DNA of 25,349 bases, from IMG/VR virus record IMGVR_UViG_3300008050_003669, positions 1-25,349 of that record; one strand, written 5' to 3'. Origin of the DNA: a virus. Shown here one piece after another: positions 1,242 through 23,171 of this stretch. The position numbers and the translations under genes were made by a program. The notes under the pieces are model-generated. The model was not told where the DNA came from. It saw nothing but the letters and a program-made list of their open reading frames with translations, and searched no databases. Within the stretch, counting starts at the first letter, position 1; each line of letters opens with the position of its first letter.

Positions 1242-1249
1242 CTATTATA
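1242..1249 (+). promoter_or_regulatory. Late-type promoter motif before helicase
   Basis: CTATTATA followed by GGTC and ATG. TATTAT ends 5 bases before the start codon at 1254. The 39-base gap upstream has no -35 box and no AGGAG-type ribosome binding site. Same placement as at 6944, 11130 and 14543. Confidence 0.6.
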
Positions 1250-1253
1250 GGTC

Positions 1254-2552
1254 ATGGCGTATAACTTCCAAGACTCAATACAGCGCGGCATTCTTTACCT
1301 ATCAAAATCCGAAGAAGGATTTTTAATCGAAACAATGCCTATGATTAAAGCGGAATATTTTGAATTTCCGTCTCATCAAAAATTCTACTCTACTTTAAAG
1401 GATTTCTTTCTTAGGTATAAGAAGCTTCCTACGAATGAACAGCTACTAGAAGAAACTAGAAAAATTTTAGCCTCTAATGAGTTGTTTGGAGATTATAAAG
1501 ATGAGTTAGCTGAAATTAATAAGTTGGATATTAAATCCATTGAAAACGAAGAATATTATTTGGATTGTGTAGAAGAGTTTGCTAAAGAGCAGTCTTTGAA
1601 AGAAGCTATTATTAATTCAGTAGACCATTTAGAGAAAAAGAATTTTGGAGCTATTGCCGAGGAGGTTCAAACAGCATTAACCGTCAGTCGAAATGTCGAT
1701 TTAGGTACGGATTATTTTACTGGAATTGCAGACCGGTGGAAACGACTGCAAGATAATAAAGTAAGTTCCCAGTTTAGAACCCCTTTTGAAACTGTAAACG
1801 AAGCCCTTGAAGGTGGGTTAGCTTCAAAAGAAATGGCAATGGTCGTCGCTCCTCCTGGAGTTGGCAAGTCTTTGTTTTTAGCTAATCAAGCGGTACGCTC
1901 AGTCTTGGATGGATATAATGTGGTGTATTTATCGTTAGAGATGGCTGAAGATAGAGTAGCTCAAAGGTTGGATAGTATTTTTACTAGGATTCAACAAAAG
2001 CAACTTTCAAAGCGTGTTAAAGACGTGGAGGAGCGACTGTCCACCATTGAGGAAAAGCTCCCTGGAAAAGGGCGGCTTATGATTAAAGAATTTCCTACTA
2101 AAAGGTTAAGTGTGAGCGGTATTAGAGCATACTTAAATCAGTTAAGGAACTATGAAGATTTTACTCCAGACGTTTTAATCGTAGACTATTTAGAGCTGTT
2201 ATCTTCGGATTCCACTGTTGCAGAATACCAAGCACAAGAACGAACCGCCCAAGAATTAAGAGGGTTGGCTACAGAATATAAATTATTGGTGTGGACTGCA
2301 ACACAAACTAATCGCGAAGGTAAAAAAGTTCAAATTATTACAGACGCTGAATTGGCTGATTCGTACGGTAAAATTCGCGTATGTGATTTAGTCTTCTCTA
2401 TAAACCAAACCGAGCAAGAGTTCGATAGTGGTGACGCACGTTTATATTTAATGAAATCTCGAAATGGTCGAGCAAGGTTTATCGTACCTATTAAAGTAGA
2501 TTATACAAGACTTGTCGTATCTCAAGAGCAAGTACAAGAACAGACAGCATAA
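1254..2552 (+). CDS. DnaB/gp41-like replicative DNA helicase
   Basis: Hexameric 5'-3' helicase that would unwind the replication fork and work with a primase (none recognised here). The N-terminal roughly 150 residues are helical, as in DnaB/gp41 N-domains. The RecA-like ATPase core follows: Walker A APPGVGKS at 199-206, a LSLEM strand with conserved Glu at 227-230, Walker B VLIVDY at 307-312, then WTATQTNREG, the glutamine-ended strand typical of DnaB motif 3, and a C-terminal SRNGRARFIVPI segment. The 432-residue length fits a DnaB/gp41 protein. The ATG lies just after a CTATTATA motif and has no Shine-Dalgarno. The stop overlaps the next start (TAATGG), which suggests coupling to the HExxH gene. 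Confidence 0.93.
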   Translation: MAYNFQDSIQRGILYLSKSEEGFLIETMPMIKAEYFEFPSHQKFYSTLKDFFLRYKKLPTNEQLLEETRKILASNELFGDYKDELAEINKLDIKSIENEEYYLDCVEEFAKEQSLKEAIINSVDHLEKKNFGAIAEEVQTALTVSRNVDLGTDYFTGIADRWKRLQDNKVSSQFRTPFETVNEALEGGLASKEMAMVVAPPGVGKSLFLANQAVRSVLDGYNVVYLSLEMAEDRVAQRLDSIFTRIQQKQLSKRVKDVEERLSTIEEKLPGKGRLMIKEFPTKRLSVSGIRAYLNQLRNYEDFTPDVLIVDYLELLSSDSTVAEYQAQERTAQELRGLATEYKLLVWTATQTNREGKKVQIITDAELADSYGKIRVCDLVFSINQTEQEFDSGDARLYLMKSRNGRARFIVPIKVDYTRLVVSQEQVQEQTA

Positions 2553-3338: not shown

Positions 3339-3344
3339 ACCCAA

Positions 3345-3352
3345 CTATAATA
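3345..3352 (+). promoter_or_regulatory. Late-type promoter motif for SSB transcript
   Basis: CTATAATA, seven bases after the end of the UvsY-like gene. Using normal -10 spacing, transcription would begin at about 3357-3359, exactly at the first base pairs of the leader stem. No -35 box is seen. Confidence 0.6.
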
Positions 3353-3355
3353 AAC

Positions 3356-3483
3356 TGTAAGGGGGAAGTACTAAAGTAAGACTAGGCGCCGGACATATAG
3401 TGGGCAGGCTAAGCCAAGCAATTAAGCTTGCACTACCTCACTGTCCTGAGATACATGCTGTAAATGTCGCTTCCCCCCTTACA
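3356..3483 (+). ncRNA. Structured 5' leader RNA of the SSB gene
   Basis: The only long gap without an ORF in the left part holds a strong RNA fold. A 13-bp closing stem pairs 3356-3368 (TGTAAGGGGGAAG) with 3470-3483, with one extra C. Inside are small hairpins: 3369-3378 (TAC/GTA), a domain closed by GGAC 3391-3394 with GTCC 3443-3446, within it GGC/GCC 3407-3415 or CAAGC/GCTTG 3415-3430, and ACAT 3453-3456 with ATGT 3464-3467. The predicted transcription start coincides with the first bases of the closing stem. It is followed by a 29-base unstructured stretch with CGGAG and the SSB start. T4 gp32 is autoregulated through a structured leader, so an analogous operator is plausible. It does not match any RNA family I recognise. 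Confidence 0.65.
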
Positions 3484-3512
3484 TTCAACAACCAAATTAA
3501 CGGAGTAAAACC

Positions 3513-6120: not shown

Positions 6121-6936
6121 ATGAGTATACCTAAAGTTGTATGTTTCTGCTGTACAAAAGGCAGGTTTGAAATACTCCGTAAAAGTATTTCTTTTTTCTT
6201 AGCGCAAGACTACGAAAATAAAGAACTTGTTATAATGAATAACCACGAAGTTCCTTTAGTTTTATCTGAGGAACTACAGAGCGAGAATATAACCGTAGTA
6301 AATAAAGGTGCATCAACATCCATAGAACATTTTGTGGATATGATGAATGAAGTTCTACAAACGCTAGAGGGAGATTTTATAGCACCAGCTTGGGACGATG
6401 ACGATGTATTTCTCCCTTGGCACATATCATCTCTTGTTAAACTCTTTACTCCTGTTACGCAGGCAGTTAGAACAACTCCTAACTATCATTTTTATTGCAA
6501 AGACGGAAAACCTTCCATAAATATGTTAGGATGTATTTGTGAACCTACTCACTTGGCAAGAATGGACTTTATTAAAGAGCATGGTATTAGAGGGGCTGAA
6601 AGTAATATAATGCATTGGCATGCGTCATGGCTTTATAAACTTACTGAGGAGACTATCGTAAGAGGAGATGATACAGACACGGCATATGTTTTAGTGTGGG
6701 ATAGAACGTGTTTTGATGATTATCCTCATTTTCATGGGCAGTGTGTTGTAAACAATGAAGGGTGGGAAGCGCATATTGTAGCAAATGGCAAAGATACAGG
6801 AGAAGGCAAACCTTTAACATCTTGTGACGTAAAACCTCTTTACCAGAAGATATACGATGCTCTACATAATATGGAGTGTCCTGTAGAAGCCACGGGAATA
6901 ATAAGAGTTGCTATAAAACTCAAGCAGTATCTATAA
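6121..6936 (+). CDS. GT2-like (GT-A) glycosyltransferase with DDDD motif
   Basis: A 271-residue GT-A glycosyltransferase. It starts PKVVCFCCTKGR (4-15), has the SISFFLAQDYENKELVIMNN pattern (22-41) and an unusually acidic WDDDD motif at 91-95, the probable divalent-metal and nucleotide-sugar binding site. Several Cys and His lie in the C-terminal half (for example around CFDDYPHFHGQC). AAAGG upstream gives a modest RBS. It closes a run of three adjacent glycosyltransferases downstream of the SSB. Its acceptor (DNA, virion protein or host surface glycan) cannot be read from sequence. Confidence 0.8.
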   Translation: MSIPKVVCFCCTKGRFEILRKSISFFLAQDYENKELVIMNNHEVPLVLSEELQSENITVVNKGASTSIEHFVDMMNEVLQTLEGDFIAPAWDDDDVFLPWHISSLVKLFTPVTQAVRTTPNYHFYCKDGKPSINMLGCICEPTHLARMDFIKEHGIRGAESNIMHWHASWLYKLTEETIVRGDDTDTAYVLVWDRTCFDDYPHFHGQCVVNNEGWEAHIVANGKDTGEGKPLTSCDVKPLYQKIYDALHNMECPVEATGIIRVAIKLKQYL

Positions 6937-6943
6937 GCGCCAA

Positions 6944-6951
6944 CTATAATA
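6944..6951 (+). promoter_or_regulatory. Late-type promoter motif before RecA/UvsX
   Basis: CTATAATA preceded by CA; TATAAT ends 5 bases before the ATG at 6956. The 19-base gap to the previous gene contains no Shine-Dalgarno, and no -35 box is present upstream. Confidence 0.6.
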
Positions 6952-6955
6952 GAAT

Positions 6956-7930
6956 ATGGTAGGATTTTTAAACGATATTTGTAAACGCTTAGAAGGAGCC
7001 GCTTTACTTTCAGAGGAAGACCAAGTTTATGGGTTTGTTGATTCAGGCTCCTATTCTTTGAATAAGGTTCTTTCGGGTAAGTATGATGGAGGTTATCCGA
7101 TTGGAGGAATTACAGAAATTTACGGTGAGAGTAGTTCTGCTAAGACAGTATTCTTAACTCACGCTTTCGTAGGAGCCCAAAAGAAAGGCTATTACACTGT
7201 AATGATTGATAATGAGCATGCTTATTCCCCCTCCTTTGCTAAGATACTTGGGGTGGACCCTGAGAAGTTAATTTATTTAATGCCTGAAACTATGGAAGAT
7301 TGCTTTAAGGCGATTGAGGAGGTTATTGAGGCTATTAGAGAGAAAGACACGGAAACTCCTATTATTATAGGGTACGACTCTATTGGGGTATCTCCTACCC
7401 GCAAGGAAATGGACGACGCGTTTGCTAAAAACAGCGAAATGGGTGGAGCTTTGAGAGCCAAAGTAGCAGGTCAATGCCTAAGACGTATCAATCCTTTACT
7501 TAGGAAACACAAAGCCGCGTTGCTTATTGTTAACCAAGTAAGGAGTAAAGTTGGAGTTATGTTTGGAGACCCTCGCACCAAAGCTGGGGGAGGCAAAGCC
7601 CTTCTTTATTACTGTTCGGTGTCCATCGAGACTTCGTCCGGTAAAAATGATGTGCTTTATGATGACCTTAAAAACCCTATGGGTATTAAAGGAAATATTA
7701 AATGTGTTAAAAACAAAGTAACCGTCCCTTTTCAATCATGTGAGTTCCACTTACTATACGACAAAGGTTTAGATAGAAAATTTGGACTTACCAAGTACGC
7801 CTTAAAGAAAGGGCAAGTTACCTCCCCTACTAGCGGGTGGTATGCATTAGAAGGCGATAGTAATAAAGTTAGAGCAGCCGCTATGGACGGTATCCTGGCA
7901 GATAAAGTGGAATCTGGAGATATAAAATGA
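6956..7930 (+). CDS. RecA/UvsX-like recombinase
   Basis: ATP-dependent strand-exchange protein for recombination-dependent replication and repair. The core begins near residue 47. Walker A is GESSSAKT at 57-64, a variant of the RecA GPESSGKT with Ala before the Lys. IIIGYDSIG near 137-145 is the Walker B strand. KAALLIVNQVRSKVG gives the L1/motif with the sensing Gln, and RTKAGGGKALLYYCSVSIE is the RecA-like region around loop L2. The 324-residue length lies between UvsX and RecA, without a long RecA C-tail. The ATG lies immediately after a CTATAATA motif with no RBS. The stop overlaps the GroES-like start as ATGA. Confidence 0.92.
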   Translation: MVGFLNDICKRLEGAALLSEEDQVYGFVDSGSYSLNKVLSGKYDGGYPIGGITEIYGESSSAKTVFLTHAFVGAQKKGYYTVMIDNEHAYSPSFAKILGVDPEKLIYLMPETMEDCFKAIEEVIEAIREKDTETPIIIGYDSIGVSPTRKEMDDAFAKNSEMGGALRAKVAGQCLRRINPLLRKHKAALLIVNQVRSKVGVMFGDPRTKAGGGKALLYYCSVSIETSSGKNDVLYDDLKNPMGIKGNIKCVKNKVTVPFQSCEFHLLYDKGLDRKFGLTKYALKKGQVTSPTSGWYALEGDSNKVRAAAMDGILADKVESGDIK

Positions 7931-8437: not shown

Positions 8438-8456
8438 CTCCTAAATAAAGAAGGAG
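8438..8456 (+). promoter_or_regulatory. Hairpin covering the ribosome binding site of the 138-aa gene
   Basis: CTCCT (8438-8442) can pair with AGGAG (8452-8456) around a 9-base loop. The AGGAG is the Shine-Dalgarno for the ATG at 8463. The fold would hide the RBS and could give conditional translation. Confidence 0.4.
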
Positions 8457-10732: not shown

Positions 10733-10740
10733 CTATTATA
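10733..10740 (+). promoter_or_regulatory. Late-type promoter motif of the basic-protein cassette
   Basis: CTATTATA preceded by GT, as at 1242 and 17330. The predicted start is around 10746, one base before a hairpin. No -35 box is seen. Confidence 0.6.
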
Positions 10741-11129: not shown

Positions 11130-11137
11130 CTATAATA
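11130..11137 (+). promoter_or_regulatory. Late-type promoter motif before rmlA
   Basis: CTATAATA preceded by AA, just after the terminator T-run. TATAAT ends 5 bases before the ATG at 11142. No -35 and no Shine-Dalgarno are present. The rmlA start is fixed by its conserved N-terminus, so the very short spacing is reliable. Confidence 0.65.
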
Positions 11138-11141
11138 ATTT

Positions 11142-11870
11142 ATGAAAGGAATTATTCTTGCTGGAGGTTTAGGAACTCGTCTATCTCCATTAACCAAAGC
11201 TACTAACAAACATTTATTGCCTGTGTATGATAAACCTATGGTATATCATCCTATTAGTACTTTAGTTAATGCAGGGGTTAAGGACATTATGGTTGTTACC
11301 GGAGGTCCTCACGCTGGCGATTTTATACGCGTTCTTAGGAACGGAGAAGATTTTGGGTTAAAGGGGTTAAGTTATGCATATCAAGAAGGAGAGGGAGGAA
11401 TCGCTGTGGCATTGTCTATGGCTGAGTCCTTTGTTGGTGACGATAAGTGTGTTGTTGTTCTTGGTGATAATATTATCGCTGACGATATTAGTAGTGCTGT
11501 CAATGAGTTTAGACATGTGGGAGGGGCTCAAGTGTTTGTTAAAGAAGTTCATGACCCCGAAAGATACGGAGTTGTAGAATACTCTGAGGACGGTGAAGTA
11601 ATAGGGTTGTTAGAAAAACCCGCTAACCCTCCATCCAATGACGCTATTATAGGTCTTTATATGTACGATAACACGGTATTCACCAGAATCAAAGAGTTAG
11701 CACCATCTAACAGAGGCGAGTTAGAAGTTACAGATTTAAATCAATCATATTTGAATGATGGTTTGTTACGAGTTAAACGTGTTCATGGAACATGGATGGA
11801 TTGCGGAACCTTTGATTCCTTAGCAGAGTCTTCTTATAAATTCTATGAAGACTATAAAAGTAAAATTTAA
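11142..11870 (+). CDS. rmlA: Glucose-1-phosphate thymidylyltransferase (RmlA-like)
   Basis: Makes dTDP-glucose from dTTP and glucose-1-phosphate, the first step of dTDP-deoxysugar synthesis. The conserved N-terminus MKGIILAGGLGTRLSPLT with the LAGGxGTRL nucleotide loop fixes the start. KHLLPVYDKPMVYHPI (24-39) and VVLGDNII (with the metal-binding Asp region) follow, then FVKEVHDPERYGVVEY and EKPANPPSN, with GELEVTDLNQSYL and GTWMDCGTFDSL. At 242 residues it is shorter than the usual roughly 290, lacking the C-terminal helices. The gene follows a terminator and a CTATAATA motif with no RBS. It is 4 bases from rmlB. Confidence 0.93.
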   Translation: MKGIILAGGLGTRLSPLTKATNKHLLPVYDKPMVYHPISTLVNAGVKDIMVVTGGPHAGDFIRVLRNGEDFGLKGLSYAYQEGEGGIAVALSMAESFVGDDKCVVVLGDNIIADDISSAVNEFRHVGGAQVFVKEVHDPERYGVVEYSEDGEVIGLLEKPANPPSNDAIIGLYMYDNTVFTRIKELAPSNRGELEVTDLNQSYLNDGLLRVKRVHGTWMDCGTFDSLAESSYKFYEDYKSKI

Positions 11871-14542: not shown

Positions 14543-14550
14543 CTATAATA
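14543..14550 (+). promoter_or_regulatory. Late-type promoter motif before 72-aa gene
   Basis: CTATAATA preceded by TA; TATAAT ends 5 bases before the ATG at 14555. No Shine-Dalgarno and no -35 box are present. Confidence 0.6.
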
Positions 14551-14554
14551 AAGC

Positions 14555-14773
14555 ATGGATAAAACATTTTTAACTTGTGATTATTATGCTGAAACTATGG
14601 ACGAAAGGACTAAAGGGAAGGTCTCAATCCGAAAGGATACTATTGTAGCTGCTTATACTATTTCTGGATTTCGAAACAGGACATTAGTAATGACCGATGG
14701 AGGTCTTAAGTTCGCTGTAAAAGGTAAGCTAGAAACTCTAGATTTAGGTACCCCCTCTGTACTTTCTGAGTAA
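14555..14773 (+). CDS. Unknown 72-aa protein
   Basis: Small soluble protein with no recognised family. The residue pattern (TFLTCDYYAET, then KGKVSIRKDTIVAAYTISGFRNRTLVMTDGG) alternates strands and suggests a small beta-barrel or KOW/SH3-like fold. It begins right after a CTATAATA motif without an RBS, and its stop overlaps the nuclease start (TAATG), so it heads a three-gene unit with the nuclease and the DUF1360-like protein. Confidence 0.6.
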   Translation: MDKTFLTCDYYAETMDERTKGKVSIRKDTIVAAYTISGFRNRTLVMTDGGLKFAVKGKLETLDLGTPSVLSE

Positions 14774-15593: not shown

Positions 15594-15700
15594 ACAGTAA
15601 AAGTCAAAAGACTGTCTAAGTACTCTTCCATACAGTAAAAGTCAAAAGATTACCCAGACAGTAAAAGTCAAAAGATTACCCAACAATAAAAGTCAAAAGA
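15594..15700 (+). repeat. Four direct repeats before the fibre gene (iteron-like)
   Basis: The 18-base unit ACAGTAAAAGTCAAAAGA occurs at 15594-15611, 15632-15649 and 15658-15675, with a one-base variant (ACAATAAAAGTCAAAAGA) at 15683-15700. Copies 2 and 3 share an extra TTACCCA tail. Start-to-start spacings are 38, 26 and 25 bases. The last copy ends one base before the ATG at 15702, so it occupies the ribosome binding region, which has no normal AGGAG. Possible protein-binding sites, or traces of module exchange at the fibre gene. Confidence 0.9.
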
Positions 15701-15701
15701 T

Positions 15702-17219: not shown

Positions 17220-17362
17220 TTCTGAATAACAGAAACATTGTTGGTTGGTCGAGGGCGGATTTAATTCTAGTTAAAATAAAGAGTTACATTCTTTTTTCTA
17301 ACTTCACGAAAATTAAGCCAAAGTTGAGTCTATTATAATAGGAGGGCAGACCTAGATAATAT
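17220..17362. other. Gene-free gap after the fibre gene
   Basis: No ORF is seen. A weak 5-bp hairpin TTCTG/CAGAA lies just after the fibre stop without a T-run, so it is not a convincing terminator. The only other feature recognised is the CTATTATAATA motif at 17330-17340. Confidence 0.5.
17330..17337 (+). promoter_or_regulatory. Late-type promoter motif before 127-aa gene
   Basis: CTATTATA preceded by GT, overlapping TATAATA (17334-17340). Transcription would start around 17343-17346, leaving a leader of roughly 17-20 bases. GGAGGG at 17341-17346 is too far (about 16 bases) from the ATG at 17363 to act as a normal RBS. Confidence 0.5.
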
Positions 17363-17783: not shown

Positions 17784-17812
17784 TTGACAGAGCCTATGCG
17801 CTATGTTACAAT
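17784..17812 (+). promoter_or_regulatory. Strong sigma70-type (early) promoter
   Basis: TTGACA at 17784-17789, a spacer of exactly 17 bases, then TACAAT at 17807-17812. This near-consensus host promoter is the only one of its kind recognised in the window. It reads into the block starting at 17876, with transcription start expected near 17819. Confidence 0.92.
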
Positions 17813-17846: not shown

Positions 17847-17875
17847 CATTTAACCCAAAAAACAGGAGATTGTCT

Positions 17876-18721
17876 GTGAAATTCGTAATTGACGAAACAA
17901 AAGATTCAATGATTCGCAACTTAGTTGGTGCGGGCAAAAACATTATGCTAACAGGTGCTACAGGTTGTGGTAAGACTTCTTATTGCTACAAACTAGGAGA
18001 TGATTTAGGAATGGATGTAACCGTAATAAACTGTGGTTCATTACAAGATGCTAGAACTTCTCTTTTAGGTTACTTCACACTAGAAGATGGAAATACTAAT
18101 TTTCATGAAGCGGAGTTTATTCGTGCTATCCAAAAACCAAATTCTCTTATCGTGCTTGATGAGTTGAGCAGAGCAACAGATGATGCTTACAACATCTTGT
18201 TTCCTGTATTAGACCATCGTCGTGAGATTCGTATTGACGAAGAAGAAGGAGGTTCTAAAGTTATAAAAGCACACCCATCTGTTCGTTTTATTTCAACAGC
18301 AAACATTGGTATTGAATACTCATCTACTCGTAGTATTGACCGAGCATTACAAGACCGATTTATGTCTTTTAACATTCCTTACATTACAGGAGAGGAGTTA
18401 AATGCTTACATTTTTGCTACTGAAGAAATCACTAATAGTGGTAGAGGTCGTGTAGAACAAATGAGTAAAATTTATGATTACTCACACACTCTTTTTGGTA
18501 AGGGTAAAATTGGAACAAGGATTTCAACTCGTGCTGTTTTAGATGTAGTTTCTTTGTTAAAAGGAAGCGATTTTTCAGTTCAGCAAATTCTTGACCATGC
18601 TATTCTTTCTCAATATGAGCAAGATTCAAGCACTATTGTAAACGACGCAAATGTATTGCGTGAGTTTGCTGATTCTATTGGCGTATACGCAAATTCAGAA
18701 AACGATACTGTAAAAGGTTAA
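17876..18721 (+). CDS. MoxR/CobS-like AAA+ ATPase
   Basis: AAA+ ATPase of the MoxR type, which remodels protein complexes together with a VWA-domain partner. Start chosen as GTG at 17876: AGGAG at 17864-17868 is 7 bases away, whereas an in-frame TTG at 17870 lies against the RBS. Numbered from that GTG (281 residues): Walker A GATGCGKT at 27-34, Walker B LIVLDE at 91-96 (with ELSRA typical of MoxR), sensor 1 STAN at 140-143 and arginine-finger-type DRALQDRF. CobS, of the aerobic cobaltochelatase, is a close structural relative. Partner genes follow at 18723 and 20345. First gene after the early promoter. Confidence 0.9.
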   Translation: MKFVIDETKDSMIRNLVGAGKNIMLTGATGCGKTSYCYKLGDDLGMDVTVINCGSLQDARTSLLGYFTLEDGNTNFHEAEFIRAIQKPNSLIVLDELSRATDDAYNILFPVLDHRREIRIDEEEGGSKVIKAHPSVRFISTANIGIEYSSTRSIDRALQDRFMSFNIPYITGEELNAYIFATEEITNSGRGRVEQMSKIYDYSHTLFGKGKIGTRISTRAVLDVVSLLKGSDFSVQQILDHAILSQYEQDSSTIVNDANVLREFADSIGVYANSENDTVKG

Positions 18722-18722
18722 T

Positions 18723-19985
18723 ATGAGAAAGGAAGATACAATCTCGATAAACGAGAATGTTAAAGTAGATGCGGAGTTAATGTCTCAATGGCTAAACTCT
18801 ATGGGAGACATTGAAATGTCTCCCAAACTATTGTTTGATTTACAAACATTACTTCGCTACTATGCTGATTTTCTTGTTACTGATAAAGAAGTTGATGTGT
18901 CTTATCCTGTTGAGGGTGGAACACCTTGCGCTTCTGTAGATGAAAATAAAGTATTCATACCTCTTGAATTATTAGAACAAGGTAGGGTTGATGATACTAT
19001 TGCTAGTGTAGTTCATGAATTACACCATATTAAATATTCTCCAAAAGAATCAGAAATTATTGAACATTTGTTTCCTTTATATAAAAGGATTTTACAAACA
19101 TTAGAATCTGAGCATTTAGGAGATACTATGTCTGTATGGGATATTATACATACTGACTGTCTAATTACACCTACAGACATACTTAAAGGAACATCTGATA
19201 ATGATTTCTTTCCTTTTGTTCAACAATCTTTTCGGGTTTTCTTTTTCTTAATGAATGTGTTTGAGGATGTTCGTATTGACGAGAAGAATCCTGCGAACCT
19301 AGTAAAATATCGTTCTAAGATGGAATGTAGTGCTTGGAATACATTTTCTGAAACTATGAAAACAGAGGATACTTCTGATTTAATGTCTAAAATGTTTCGT
19401 GCTTTATTTCACTATAAAGATTTTTATGTAGATAAGGAATTTGAGAATTGTTCTATTGATAAAGATTCTATTGTTAATAGCAAAAATGGATTAAGTTATC
19501 AGTATAATGTTATTAAAGAATTTGCTAAGAGTTTACAAGAGCATTGCGGTGCTTTATGGAAAGAGTTTAAGCAAGAGTCTGACGGAAAAGGAAGTTCTGC
19601 TATTGACGATTTTATGAAAGGGCAATGGTTAGAAAATAATAATTGCAATGATACAACAGGAAAAGATGATGACGATTTAGGACTTTCGGTTAGGAAAACT
19701 AATGAATTTAATTCTAGCGAAATCTTAGCAAAAGATAATGAACCTACTAAAATGGCAAAAAATGCTATGGAAATTGAATTTTCTGCTAAAGAAGTTTTTG
19801 TAGGAGATGAAAAAAATGCACCTTCTATTAACAATGATAAAGGTAGAAAATGTATTTCACAAGGTGCTTGGGCTGAAATTCAAGCATTTAGACAAATTAA
19901 ACACATAAGATGTTCAGAAGTAGTAGAACAGTCGAATGACGAACCTATTGAATACGATACTGTAATCTTTGATACTTACGCCTAA
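18723..19985 (+). CDS. HExxH protein, N-terminal half of a split CobT-like pair
   Basis: A 420-residue protein with a zincin-like motif HELHH at 98-102 and the conserved NVFEDVRIDEK stretch at 178-188, a helix-type segment seen in proteins that accompany MoxR ATPases and VWA domains, where an HExxH-like domain and a VWA domain are often fused. Here the VWA domain is a separate gene (20345). The second half (about 250-400) is acidic, polar and Asn/Lys-rich, probably a flexible linker. Peptidase activity is possible but not certain. It starts one base after the preceding gene with AAAGG as a weak RBS. Confidence 0.7.
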   Translation: MRKEDTISINENVKVDAELMSQWLNSMGDIEMSPKLLFDLQTLLRYYADFLVTDKEVDVSYPVEGGTPCASVDENKVFIPLELLEQGRVDDTIASVVHELHHIKYSPKESEIIEHLFPLYKRILQTLESEHLGDTMSVWDIIHTDCLITPTDILKGTSDNDFFPFVQQSFRVFFFLMNVFEDVRIDEKNPANLVKYRSKMECSAWNTFSETMKTEDTSDLMSKMFRALFHYKDFYVDKEFENCSIDKDSIVNSKNGLSYQYNVIKEFAKSLQEHCGALWKEFKQESDGKGSSAIDDFMKGQWLENNNCNDTTGKDDDDLGLSVRKTNEFNSSEILAKDNEPTKMAKNAMEIEFSAKEVFVGDEKNAPSINNDKGRKCISQGAWAEIQAFRQIKHIRCSEVVEQSNDEPIEYDTVIFDTYA

Positions 19986-19999
19986 ACAGGAGAAAAAAA

Positions 20000-20344
20000 A
20001 TGAATGTAAAATTAACTAAAATTAACCACTTCCTTTCCAAGTCTTTAGAGATGACGGAAATGGAACTCGCACAGATTACAGACAAAGACTTGTCTGAATA
20101 TCGTGTATTATACGCAACTATTCCTTCCGATTTCGAGAGTGATAGAGATGAAGCAAGAAAATTGCAAGTAAAAGCAGAAAGTATTGCGGAAGAGTTGTAT
20201 GGCAGTTACTCTAATCAATATAAGTATATTGTTCGTAATTGGCATAAGGGATTAGATATTGTAGGTTCTCACTACGGTAGTCTTGAAAGTCCTACGAACC
20301 TAGAATGTCGTGTTCAAGATGCTAAAGTAGCACAGGAGATATAG
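20000..20344 (+). CDS. Unknown 114-aa protein in the MoxR/VWA operon
   Basis: A soluble, mostly helical protein without a recognised family. The N-terminal part (MTEMELAQITDKDLSEYRVLYATI) looks like a small helical bundle, followed by a charged helix (DRDEARKLQVKAESIAEELY). A good AGGAG lies upstream of the ATG. Its position between the HExxH gene and the VWA gene suggests it works with, or is an accessory of, that complex. Confidence 0.6.
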   Translation: MNVKLTKINHFLSKSLEMTEMELAQITDKDLSEYRVLYATIPSDFESDRDEARKLQVKAESIAEELYGSYSNQYKYIVRNWHKGLDIVGSHYGSLESPTNLECRVQDAKVAQEI

Positions 20345-21271
20345 ATGACAGAAAAAGTTTCGTTTGATGCAAAGGCTATCTTTCAATCTGAAGGAAGCAA
20401 AGATTCTAATCTAGTTTCGTATAGAGAAGAATTATATGGTAAATTCGCAAGACAAATTACTCGCTTATTAGAATCTAAGAAGCCAAAAAAGATTGCCACT
20501 AGAAAAGGACTGCTTAATACCAGAACCTTGTATAAGCATACTTTTGATGATAATGTATTCTATAAAAGAACACAAATCCCATCTTCGGATACCACTATTG
20601 TGTTTTTAATAGATAATAGTGGTAGTATGTCTAGTTATTGCCATGACGATTTTTCTGCTATTGAAAAATGTAATGCTGTAGTATCTGCTTTCTGTAAAGC
20701 AAATAAAGTATGTCTCAATAACGAGATTAAAACAGAAGTATTTTATAAATCAACTCCTTGTAGAGATATGACAGGGTTTGTAAGAGGACAAGTTCCTATA
20801 CTTACTAGGGTATTCTCTAATGTTAGAAATGATACTAATTGGGATAAGATATTAGATGTGGATACTACTGCTCCTGTAAGACATAATGGTCATGCTACAG
20901 GAAGTTTAACTCCTGAATTTCTTTTGCTTCCTGCTTTAACAGAATGGATGCGGAAGAATATTGTTACGAAAAATGTTGTTGTTGTTAATCTAACTGATGG
21001 TAGTGTTCAACATAGTTTTACTCAAGACATAGGAGAAGAAAATAGTAGGGGTAGAAAATTTTACGCTACTGATAATGATACAAAAACACTTCGTATTAAG
21101 TATCTTCGTGCTATCCCTCATATTACTATGTTTCTTGGTGCAAGTGATTGGATGAAACAGGATTTATCTCATGTATATGGAGAGAATAATTCTATGTTCG
21201 TGGAAGATGAAACTTTTGTTACAGAATTCTTTAAGTTATTAACAGGTATGGTGGCTGAAAATGTCGAGTAA
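20345..21271 (+). CDS. VWA-domain protein, CobT C-terminal-like
   Basis: A 308-residue protein whose second part is a von Willebrand A domain with an intact MIDAS: DNSGS at 90-94, a Thr near 185-189 (HATGSLTPE) and D218 in NLTDGS. The preceding GLLNTRTLYKHTFDDNVFYKR (55-75) matches the segment just before the VWA domain in CobT-type proteins. CobT/MoxR partners form a ring-ATPase and VWA complex that remodels a client; the client here is unknown. AGGAG gives a normal RBS. It overlaps the next gene by 11 bases. Confidence 0.87.
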   Translation: MTEKVSFDAKAIFQSEGSKDSNLVSYREELYGKFARQITRLLESKKPKKIATRKGLLNTRTLYKHTFDDNVFYKRTQIPSSDTTIVFLIDNSGSMSSYCHDDFSAIEKCNAVVSAFCKANKVCLNNEIKTEVFYKSTPCRDMTGFVRGQVPILTRVFSNVRNDTNWDKILDVDTTAPVRHNGHATGSLTPEFLLLPALTEWMRKNIVTKNVVVVNLTDGSVQHSFTQDIGEENSRGRKFYATDNDTKTLRIKYLRAIPHITMFLGASDWMKQDLSHVYGENNSMFVEDETFVTEFFKLLTGMVAENVE

Positions 21272-22031
21272 AAAAATGATAGAAATAAAACATAGATTGC
21301 ATTGGGATGCGTTAGAGTCTGAGTTACAGATTTACGCTTATGAAAACGCAAAAAAAGGAGGACATAAAAACCCTGCTACTGTAAAAAATAACTTTAAGTT
21401 TGGGGCTGTGCTTTTGGACAACAAAGAAGATTTTAAGATTAGAGAACTTCCTATAAATTCAAACTTTAGCGATTCAAGACCAACTGCTATGATAACAACA
21501 AGTGCGTTGCTTAATAGCATTATAGACAATCTTTATATCGGCGAAAGGCATTCGGGGAATGCTAACAGAAATAGTTTGAATAATATTATTTGGTTGTTGG
21601 ATTTACTGTGGTGTCTTGCAGAGAATACTGATAAGGGTGTAATGTTTCTTGGAGGGGAGTTAAAAAAAGGCTACCGAATGGGCTACTCAAACGATTTTCA
21701 TAACTCTCGTCATTTTCTCAGCAAACGATATTCTTCTTTATATCCATCAAAAAAATGGCTGAGAGAAAAAGAAGAAGCATACGACAAAGCGTATGAAGGA
21801 TATTCTGAGGAAGAAACAAAAGCGTTTGACGAGTTCAGACCTGTAAATCCTATACTTATGAATATAAGGAAGAAATTTCCTTATGATGAAGAAGAGATTA
21901 GGGGGATGAAAAAATATAAAAGAAGGAAGAACATTCCTTCAGAATGGGATTGGGAATCGGGGCATATAGATGCCTGTTTGAAAACCGAAATCCTTAAACT
22001 ACGAAACACATTGGAGAAAAAAAATGCCTAA
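21261..22031 (+). CDS. Unknown 256-aa protein
   Basis: No family recognised. Mixed helix and strand, with LLNSIIDNLYIGERHSGNANRNSLNNIIWLLDLLWCL in the middle and a charged C-terminal third (KKFPYDEEEIRGMKKYKRRKN, then WDWESGHIDACLKTEILKLRN). ATG at 21261 overlaps the VWA gene. An in-frame ATG at 21276 is a possible alternative start. Part of the same early operon. Confidence 0.6.
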   Translation: MSSKKMIEIKHRLHWDALESELQIYAYENAKKGGHKNPATVKNNFKFGAVLLDNKEDFKIRELPINSNFSDSRPTAMITTSALLNSIIDNLYIGERHSGNANRNSLNNIIWLLDLLWCLAENTDKGVMFLGGELKKGYRMGYSNDFHNSRHFLSKRYSSLYPSKKWLREKEEAYDKAYEGYSEEETKAFDEFRPVNPILMNIRKKFPYDEEEIRGMKKYKRRKNIPSEWDWESGHIDACLKTEILKLRNTLEKKNA

Positions 22032-22605
22032 TTGGGTAAGCAACGGATTAACAATAGAAGGAACGAAGTCCGAAGTAACGGAGTTCGCTAACATACTAAT
22101 GTATACCCTCGAAGGTGGGCAAAAGAAAGTTATCTCTTTCCACTCAACACTCCCTCTGCCAGAATCCGAATCGGAAAATTGGTATACTTGGCAAGTTGAA
22201 AATTGGGGAACTAAATGGGATACTTGTGAAGCAGATGGCGGAGAGGTTTATGTGAGCAATAAAGAGGAAAATAAGTTTCATTTGCATTATTGTTTTGATA
22301 CGGCTTGGTCATGTCCTACGCAATGGCTTATTAAAACTTCAAAACAATATCCTAGTTTAGTGTTTAATAATACTTGGACTGAAGAACAAGGGTATAGAGG
22401 TGTTTGTAGAACTAAAAATGGAACTGTTATAATGGAAGACCATTTAGATATTCCTAGCATTGATGATTTTTTGTCTTGGGCTGAAGAGCATGATATTGAA
22501 GTAAACAACGAGGGTTTTGAAGAAGAAGATTATTGGGAGTATGACGATTATAACGAATGGTGTAGCGAAAATATGTATCAATACCCTGAAAAATGGGAGT
22601 TATAA
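22024..22605 (+). CDS. YubB/DUF1281-like ferredoxin-like-fold protein
   Basis: A 193-residue protein. It starts MPNWVSNGLTIEG, has LPLPESESENWYTWQVENWGTKWDTCEA and FDTAWSCPTQWLIKTSKQYPSLVF, the NWxTKWD and AWSxP pattern typical of the DUF1281/YubB family, found on plasmids and phages with unknown function. The very acidic C-terminus (NNEGFEEEDYWEYDDYNEW) may be an interaction tail. GGAG upstream is a normal RBS. It overlaps the previous gene by 8 bases. Confidence 0.75.
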   Translation: MPNWVSNGLTIEGTKSEVTEFANILMYTLEGGQKKVISFHSTLPLPESESENWYTWQVENWGTKWDTCEADGGEVYVSNKEENKFHLHYCFDTAWSCPTQWLIKTSKQYPSLVFNNTWTEEQGYRGVCRTKNGTVIMEDHLDIPSIDDFLSWAEEHDIEVNNEGFEEEDYWEYDDYNEWCSENMYQYPEKWEL

Positions 22606-22607
22606 AA

Positions 22608-23171
22608 ATGGTTTATTATGAATTAAAAGAAGAAGATTGGAAAAAGGTTCTAAAACAATATAGAAAACTAATGTATATGATTGCTCATAGGATTGGTGGA
22701 GATAGAGTCGCACATGATTTTGACGATAACTTTCAAGAGTTATCTACCGCCTGTATGGAAGCAATAACAACATACGCTAGAAAAGTAGATGTGGAGTTTG
22801 ATGTGTTTTTTGAAACAACAGAATTTGATAAATACATAAAGACTTGTTTGTGGAATAAAAAGAATAATGTAGGTAATAGGATTAAAAAGAAATATGGTAT
22901 TAGAAACACTATGTCTCTTAGCGGAAGTCCCGAATCCCTTAACGATTTAACTGAATTAGAACAAGAACCTTTAGAGGTATCAGCATTAGATGATGTTAGT
23001 TTAGATACTACTGCGAAAAATGTCTTAAAGATTATTATGTCGGATTCCAAACTAATAAAACCTGATGGTAAAATAAATATATCTAAACTATCTTCTCAAC
23101 TAGGAAAAACGAAAACAGAAACACGCTTTCTTCTTGAGAAGATTGAACATCAACTTAAAGATTATGAATAA
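22608..23171 (+). CDS. Probable sigma factor of the T4 gp55 (late) type
   Basis: A 187-residue protein. The start at 22608 is preferred: GGGAG lies about 10 bases before it, and an in-frame ATG at 22593 would overlap the upstream gene. Residues about 15-95 resemble sigma region 2: YRKLMYMIAHRI, then FQELSTACMEAITTYARK, FDKYIKTCLWNKKNNVGNRIKK, the 'QE...AI..Y ... F..Y.....' pattern of core binding and -10 recognition, as in gp55. The C-terminal helix-turn-helix-like stretch ISKLSSQLGKTKTETRFLLEKI could be a reduced region 4. gp55-like factors read a TATAAATA-type element without a -35 box, matching the motif repeated in the left block. Recognition is by eye, so the family call is moderate. Confidence 0.6.
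   Translation: MVYYELKEEDWKKVLKQYRKLMYMIAHRIGGDRVAHDFDDNFQELSTACMEAITTYARKVDVEFDVFFETTEFDKYIKTCLWNKKNNVGNRIKKKYGIRNTMSLSGSPESLNDLTELEQEPLEVSALDDVSLDTTAKNVLKIIMSDSKLIKPDGKINISKLSSQLGKTKTETRFLLEKIEHQLKDYE

Follow-up and report, generated by a model that had tools for sequence, protein, structure and literature searches.

A predicted sigma factor of an uncultured marine phage group and a candidate class of leaderless phage promoters

The nearest described systems to the locus analyzed here are the phage sigma factors phiEco32 gp36 and Salmonella phage 7-11 gp47, as far as the excerpted text of their description goes (PMC8948821), in which gp36 is reported to read a single -10-like element, tAATGTAtA, that has no -35 and places the transcription start 6-8 bp downstream. 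Leaderless genes with a -10 element a few base pairs upstream of the start codon are described, in the available portions of the two papers, from Deinococcus-Thermus (PMC12340547) and widely in bacteria, where they are termed TA-led (PMC3160421). Leaderless transcripts are no novelty in themselves, since a paper on phage AR9 reports that they are frequent among phages. Nothing listed in the literature searched, with subscription papers mostly outside it, describes a link between a class of phage sigma and leaderless spacing; a search pairing CTATAATA with phage gave no such promoter class among the matches listed, as titles and abstract beginnings, and one on leaderless transcripts, phages and late promoters found nothing on the phage group considered below.

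The whole stretch of DNA that was analyzed, 25,349 nt and hereafter the window, comes from an uncultured marine phage. A sequence-only reading of it had singled out one gene as a candidate gp55-like sigma factor that may read a repeated motif, an observation that we find to be real and of more interest than was stated, although this gene was wrongly labeled gp55-like. Its product is called P0001, and the translation was confirmed.

22608..23171, + strand: predicted sigma factor, 187 aa, with region 2 at about 8-96, a disordered linker at 98-127 and a C-terminal HTH at 134-186

GGGAG lies 8 nt 5' of the ATG, a second in-frame ATG occurs further upstream at 22593, and 2 nt separate the gene from its predecessor at 22024. 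Relatives were found at 14 IMG/VR loci (28-100% identity) and in 5 of 27 additional records recruited via RecA. The family alignment, A6, holds 14 distinct members, omitting L105, which nearly duplicates L106, along with L001, L005, L007, L008 and L010, which are identical to rows kept; its most diverged member, at 27% identity, is the sigma of G014, a single fragment that also has no CTATWATA element at recA. A tblastn search of 50,697 phage records with P0001 returned nothing at E <= 1, a family-profile search of contigs from GTDB species genomes gave 138 pattern stretches and 0 relatives, and the sigma of L016 used as query recovered itself alone.

The sigma region 2-like block that had been noted in this protein is borne out by Pfam Sigma70_r2 (PF04542), which matches 13 of the 14 family members at E <= 1, the best at 6e-6. 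P0001 alone scores 14.5 bits (E 0.031) against a curated cut-off of 24, but T4 gp55 (13.1 bits), phiEco32 gp36 (18.3) and SPO1 gp34 (23.8), accepted sigmas, also fall below the cut-off; 7-11 gp47 reaches 26.4. PHROG 351 (sigma factor) matches P0001 at E 6.2e-5, Sigma70_r4 was not among the Pfam matches listed for family members, and a PDB sequence search with the family gave chance-level matches only. AlphaFold models of two members (mean pLDDT 76.6 and 72.5) have the same layout, which in P0001 comprises three long helices (8-30, 38-60 and 71-96) ahead of the linker and HTH. The best 50 PDB matches listed by Foldseek are mostly sigma factors, the best at E 6e-3 and none at 0.001. Structure prediction had been proposed as a check, and the predicted fold is of the sigma region 2 type: VIA-align places region 2 of P0001 on SigB and sigma-28 with a moderate Z of 7.8 over 77-80 residues, in a range (Z < 8) where by the program's own caution a match may be just a common, non-specific arrangement. 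The C-terminal HTH aligns with several HTHs at Z of about 6-7.3 and resembles sigma4 and AsnC/LuxR-type HTHs alike. We read P0001 as a predicted sigma-70-family factor of two-domain, ECF-like layout, and it would bind core RNA polymerase. The weak single-sequence Pfam score and the AsnC-type likeness of the C-terminal domain would also suit a regulator that binds DNA, or an anti-sigma-like protein, whose sigma fold has decayed and which does not work as a sigma, but this is highly improbable in our view, since nine residues of the putative region 2.3-2.4 helix (F73, K75, Y76, K78, L81, W82, N83, K85 and N86) are invariant across the 14 members and the position of the gene behind a host-type promoter is constant.

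The description of P0001 as gp55-like has to be given up. Aligned by hhalign with 12 gp55s, the family gives a probability of 0.1% and E 0.66; A6 has no signal above shuffles against gp55s, phiEco32 gp36, 7-11 gp47 or SPO1 gp34 (hhalign, hmmsearch); the predicted fold adds the C-terminal HTH; and the virus group has a separate gp55-like protein. This second sigma-r2 protein, of 121-136 aa and encoded outside the window, emerged from a Pfam search of eight group records with T4 and SPO1, and tblastn places it in 9 of 34 records. Its alignment with gp55 reaches 80.6% in hhalign (E 1.3e-5, 95 columns), and PHROG 234 (late sigma) matches 5 of 6 members, the best at E 0.016.

G003 C1:67551-67943 (L031), - strand: gp55-like gene, sigma-r2, gp55 profile
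G005 17938-18348, - strand: gp55-like gene, likewise
G010 6662-7027, - strand: gp55-like gene, likewise; others in further records

The gp55 profile A3 found nothing at E <= 1 in 14 records, missing the gp55-like protein too, although it recovers gp55 from each of 3 control phages; the gp55-like protein has therefore diverged from known gp55s. Its gene lies near genes for a PolA-type DNA polymerase and gp47/gp46 nucleases, a neighborhood similar to that in which cyanophages keep gp55; in G003, G005 and G010 it stands alone on its strand, opposite to the others, and it has no visible SD.

The repeated motif CTATAATA is over-represented, with 10 matches in the window against 2.24 expected from shuffling. 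The arrangement CTATWATA-N4-ATG, our class P, occurs 4 times in the window against 0.04 expected, and further copies of the word lie in leaders or between genes.

1242..1256, + strand: putative class P leaderless promoter, CTATTATA-N4-ATG, DnaB-type helicase
6944..6958, + strand: putative class P leaderless promoter, CTATAATA-N4-ATG, RecA/UvsX
11130..11144, + strand: putative class P leaderless promoter, CTATAATA-N4-ATG, RfbA-like nucleotidyltransferase
14543..14557, + strand: putative class P leaderless promoter, CTATAATA-N4-ATG, conserved 72-aa ORF
3345..3352, + strand: CTATAATA in the leader of SSB (gp32-like), 160 nt before the start
10733..10740, + strand: CTATTATA, between genes, 43 nt ahead of the 10784 ORF
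17330..17337, + strand: CTATTATA, between genes, 25 nt ahead of the 17363 ORF

Across 34 records, window included (1.158 Mb), CTATWATA stands exactly 4 nt 5' of an ATG at 56 sites once redundancy is removed (P about 2e-33), the other 30 spacings having a mean of 6.3 sites each; with redundancy kept there are 73 sites against 0-3 in five Markov-1 controls. Base composition was counted over the 54 class P sites that precede an ORF of at least 30 aa, where 53 have a pyrimidine immediately ahead of the ATG (background 44%, P about 5e-18), a -35 match of at least 5/6 occurs in 2 and a TG in none. Because transcripts usually start at an A that follows a pyrimidine, the mRNA of class P genes is expected to begin at the A of the AUG. 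Upstream, the columns at about -31..-26 and -42..-39 are weakly AT-rich, and an EM search for a -35 box over 65 class P sites turned up no more than a patch rich in A around -31, counted from the motif (LL 43.7, against 24.1 for a control region and 14-19 for shuffles). By the spacing, the pyrimidine and the lack of both -35 and TG, class P has the character of a set of leaderless promoters, the leaderless transcripts themselves being presumed. A reading of the motif as a palindromic operator, CTATWATAG, was rejected, the ninth base being G in just 18 of 53 sites. When all 6-mers were ranked at spacings 0-20 from ATG in 24 records, CTTGAC and CTATAA came top; the rank of CTTGAC appears to come from a -35 followed by an ATG within an extended -10.

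At 37 recA loci, counted with redundancy kept and leaving out L072, which has no upstream sequence, the strict CTATWATA stands at 4 nt in 21 and at 5 or 6 nt in a further 5, a one- or two-base variant stands at 4 nt in 10, and 1 has none. With one-base variants allowed, the element precedes RecA in 27 of 33 records, DnaB in 11 of 22 and RfbA in 8 of 22, and hence is not universal. A leadered CTATWATA 28-40 nt 5' of the baseplate-hub gene in 4 of 4 records indicates that class P is not restricted to replication genes. The start of DnaB is class P in those 11 of 22 records (window and 21 relatives) and in the other records follows a leader that is SD-like or of another kind, a case of one gene switched between leaderless and leadered expression across records. 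The SSB leader (3339-3512, 174 nt) opens with CTATAATA and is possibly structured. Another word, AAGTCAAAA, lies on the coding strand at window positions 15601, 15639, 15665, 15690, 15891 and 16007, with four copies in the intergenic 15594-15701; the 34 records contain 72 copies, almost every one oriented with the genes, although some permuted words are commoner (maximum 134).

A host-type leaderless class, GTATAATA-N5-ATG, numbers 20 sites with redundancy removed. These precede small ORFs, have a TTGACA-like -35 of at least 5/6 in 16 cases and a TG in 13, and look like early promoters of the host sigma; host-type promoters cluster 4-9 kb beyond the sigma gene on the opposite strand. There are small-ORF clusters in which every ORF is preceded by a separate leaderless promoter of the host type (TTGACA-like, 17 nt, TGgTATAAT, 6 nt, ATG), at about 1.0-3.3 kb of G003 C1 (- strand) and near the sigma gene in G013, G023 and G006. 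Host sigma-70, alone or aided by a MotA-like phage co-activator, might itself read CTATWATA, leaving P0001 unrelated to the motif: CTATWATA includes TATAAT, and the weak AT-rich columns could be an activator or UP element. We regard this as improbable, however, given that the same genomes have clear host-type promoters with both the -35 and the TG that class P is without, and that the two differ in the base before the hexamer (C in class P, G in the host type) and in the discriminator (5 against 6 nt).

The sigma gene itself had been assigned to a block driven by a host-type promoter, and a strong promoter of this type does open that block.

17784..17812, + strand: host-type promoter of the sigma block, TTGACA-17-TACAAT with TG, score 11/12
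17870..22605, + strand: genes between that promoter and the sigma gene, namely a CobS-like AAA+ ATPase (17870), 18723, 20000, a CobT/VWA-like gene (20345), 21261 and 22024

The CobS-like gene, first in the block, has a host-type promoter scoring at least 10/12 with TG in 16 of 17 records, a set that includes two near-copy pairs (G004/G005 and G009/G010), against a background of 257 of 2,940 windows that reach 10. The order CobS - o18723 - CobT - sigma is kept in 16 of the 17 records holding a CobT-like gene, and the sequence of the seventeenth ends at that gene. CTATWATA-N4-ATG is absent between CobS and sigma in 15 of 15 records, about 4 sites being expected there by length, with 34 such sites elsewhere on the same strand; 2 of 144 occurrences of the word alone fall in this interval. 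From this arrangement we infer that P0001 is made early.

The question of which factor reads CTATWATA is bound up with the gp55-like gene, which in 8 of 9 records has a class P variant at its own start, in the class P place (-12): CTATAACA (5), CTATTACA (1) or CTATAATT (2). The promoter of that gene must therefore act before the gp55-like protein exists, and if class P needed that protein its own gene could not start, whereas P0001, made from a host promoter, can start it. This self-start problem favors P0001 over the gp55-like protein as the reader of CTATWATA, an assignment toward which we lean, if only somewhat. The assignment has its difficulties: sigmas with two domains usually rely on a -35-like element, in place of which class P shows the weak AT-rich columns; CTATWATA contains a sigma-70-like -10; and the element, as noted, is not universal. 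It is also conceivable, though rather unlikely, that the gp55-like protein reads CTATWATA and is autoregulated in the style of T4 late transcription, with P0001 serving another promoter class or a regulatory role. The profile match and a genomic neighborhood like that of cyanophage gp55 speak for that arrangement, and -10-only promoters, which T4-type late promoters also are, fit a factor that lacks region 4. The C-initial CTAAATA, putatively the late motif that gp55 of Aeh1 uses according to the portion of the source available (PMC1524935), would suit such a reader as well. On the other side, the gp55-like gene shows no start signal other than its class P promoter, so that something must read class P first, and the gp55-like protein would be better suited by the CTAAATA words that have SD leaders, a separate but weak class. 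CTATWATANNNNATG has 2 matches in twelve gp55-bearing phages (2.64 Mb) and its reversed control 7, and in the window T4's TATAAATA shows no enrichment, with 3 matches where 3.89 were expected.

CTAAATA occurs 15-22 nt ahead of several starts with an SD between, at window 8441-8447 and in G003, G005, G016, G030 and G032. With an SD leader it accounts for 19 of 179 occurrences against a mean of 2.2% in 60 permuted 7-mers, the best of which reaches 15 of 210 and, like CTAAATA, contains a TAA stop. A third promoter class, possibly late and near some virion genes, is only suggested by these counts.

Computation directly gave the sigma-type fold, the classes of promoter with their spacing and segregation, and a gene order that is conserved; to these we would attach the following scheme. 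Host RNA polymerase with host sigma would make P0001 early from the TTGACA/TG/TATAAT promoter, and P0001 would then direct core polymerase to phage promoters made up of the -10-like CTATWATA and lacking a -35 hexamer. In many of them the element stops 4 nt short of the start codon, so that the mRNA would begin at the A of the AUG and be translated without a leader; the targets would include the helicase, RecA and the small separate gp55-like sigma. An extension to a largely leaderless three-step cascade is tentative, and we hold it possible rather than probable: host sigma-70 would fire the leaderless early genes and the sigma block, P0001 the CTATWATA-N4-ATG middle genes, the gp55-like sigma gene included, and the gp55-like sigma CTAAATA late virion promoters with ordinary SD leaders. 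If the scheme is true, a phage sigma switch is coupled to message translation, the same few bases being promoter and start codon, and two sigma factors with two or three promoter classes in one marine phage group would make a directly testable cascade. Relatives of the P0001 sigma are absent from the cultured phages searched, and CTATWATA-N4-ATG offers a simple rule for finding such genes and their correct start codons in these genomes.

Compared with known systems, P0001 shares with phiEco32 gp36 the ECF-like character of a phage sigma on host core and a single -10-like element without a -35 (PMC8948821, in the text excerpted). It differs in its predicted C-terminal HTH, gp36 having no region-4 homology according to the same excerpt, in its motif and in showing no detectable alignment, and the excerpt makes no mention of leaderless spacing for gp36. 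The late sigma gp47 of phage 7-11 is alike in its two-domain size (185 aa), with Pfam sigma r2 and r4, but it uses a bipartite promoter, GTAAtg-16-aCTA (PMC8948821, same excerpt), and does not detectably align with the P0001 family. T4 and cyanophage gp55 are phage sigmas with -10-only late promoters (TATAAATA/NATAAATA), whereas the P0001 family has no profile match to them and the virus group has its own gp55-like protein. The SPO1 cascade of gp28 and gp33-gp34 is, by annotation, likewise a case of a phage with more than one sigma factor, though gp34 does not align with the P0001 family; the window's helicase and RecA find their best matches in SPO1-like and related Bacillus/Lysinibacillus phages. 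Finally, the leaderless promoters of Deinococcus-Thermus and of TA-led genes are, in the portions available of those accounts, read by host sigma, whereas the phages described here carry a phage-specific, -35-less class beside a host-type leaderless class.
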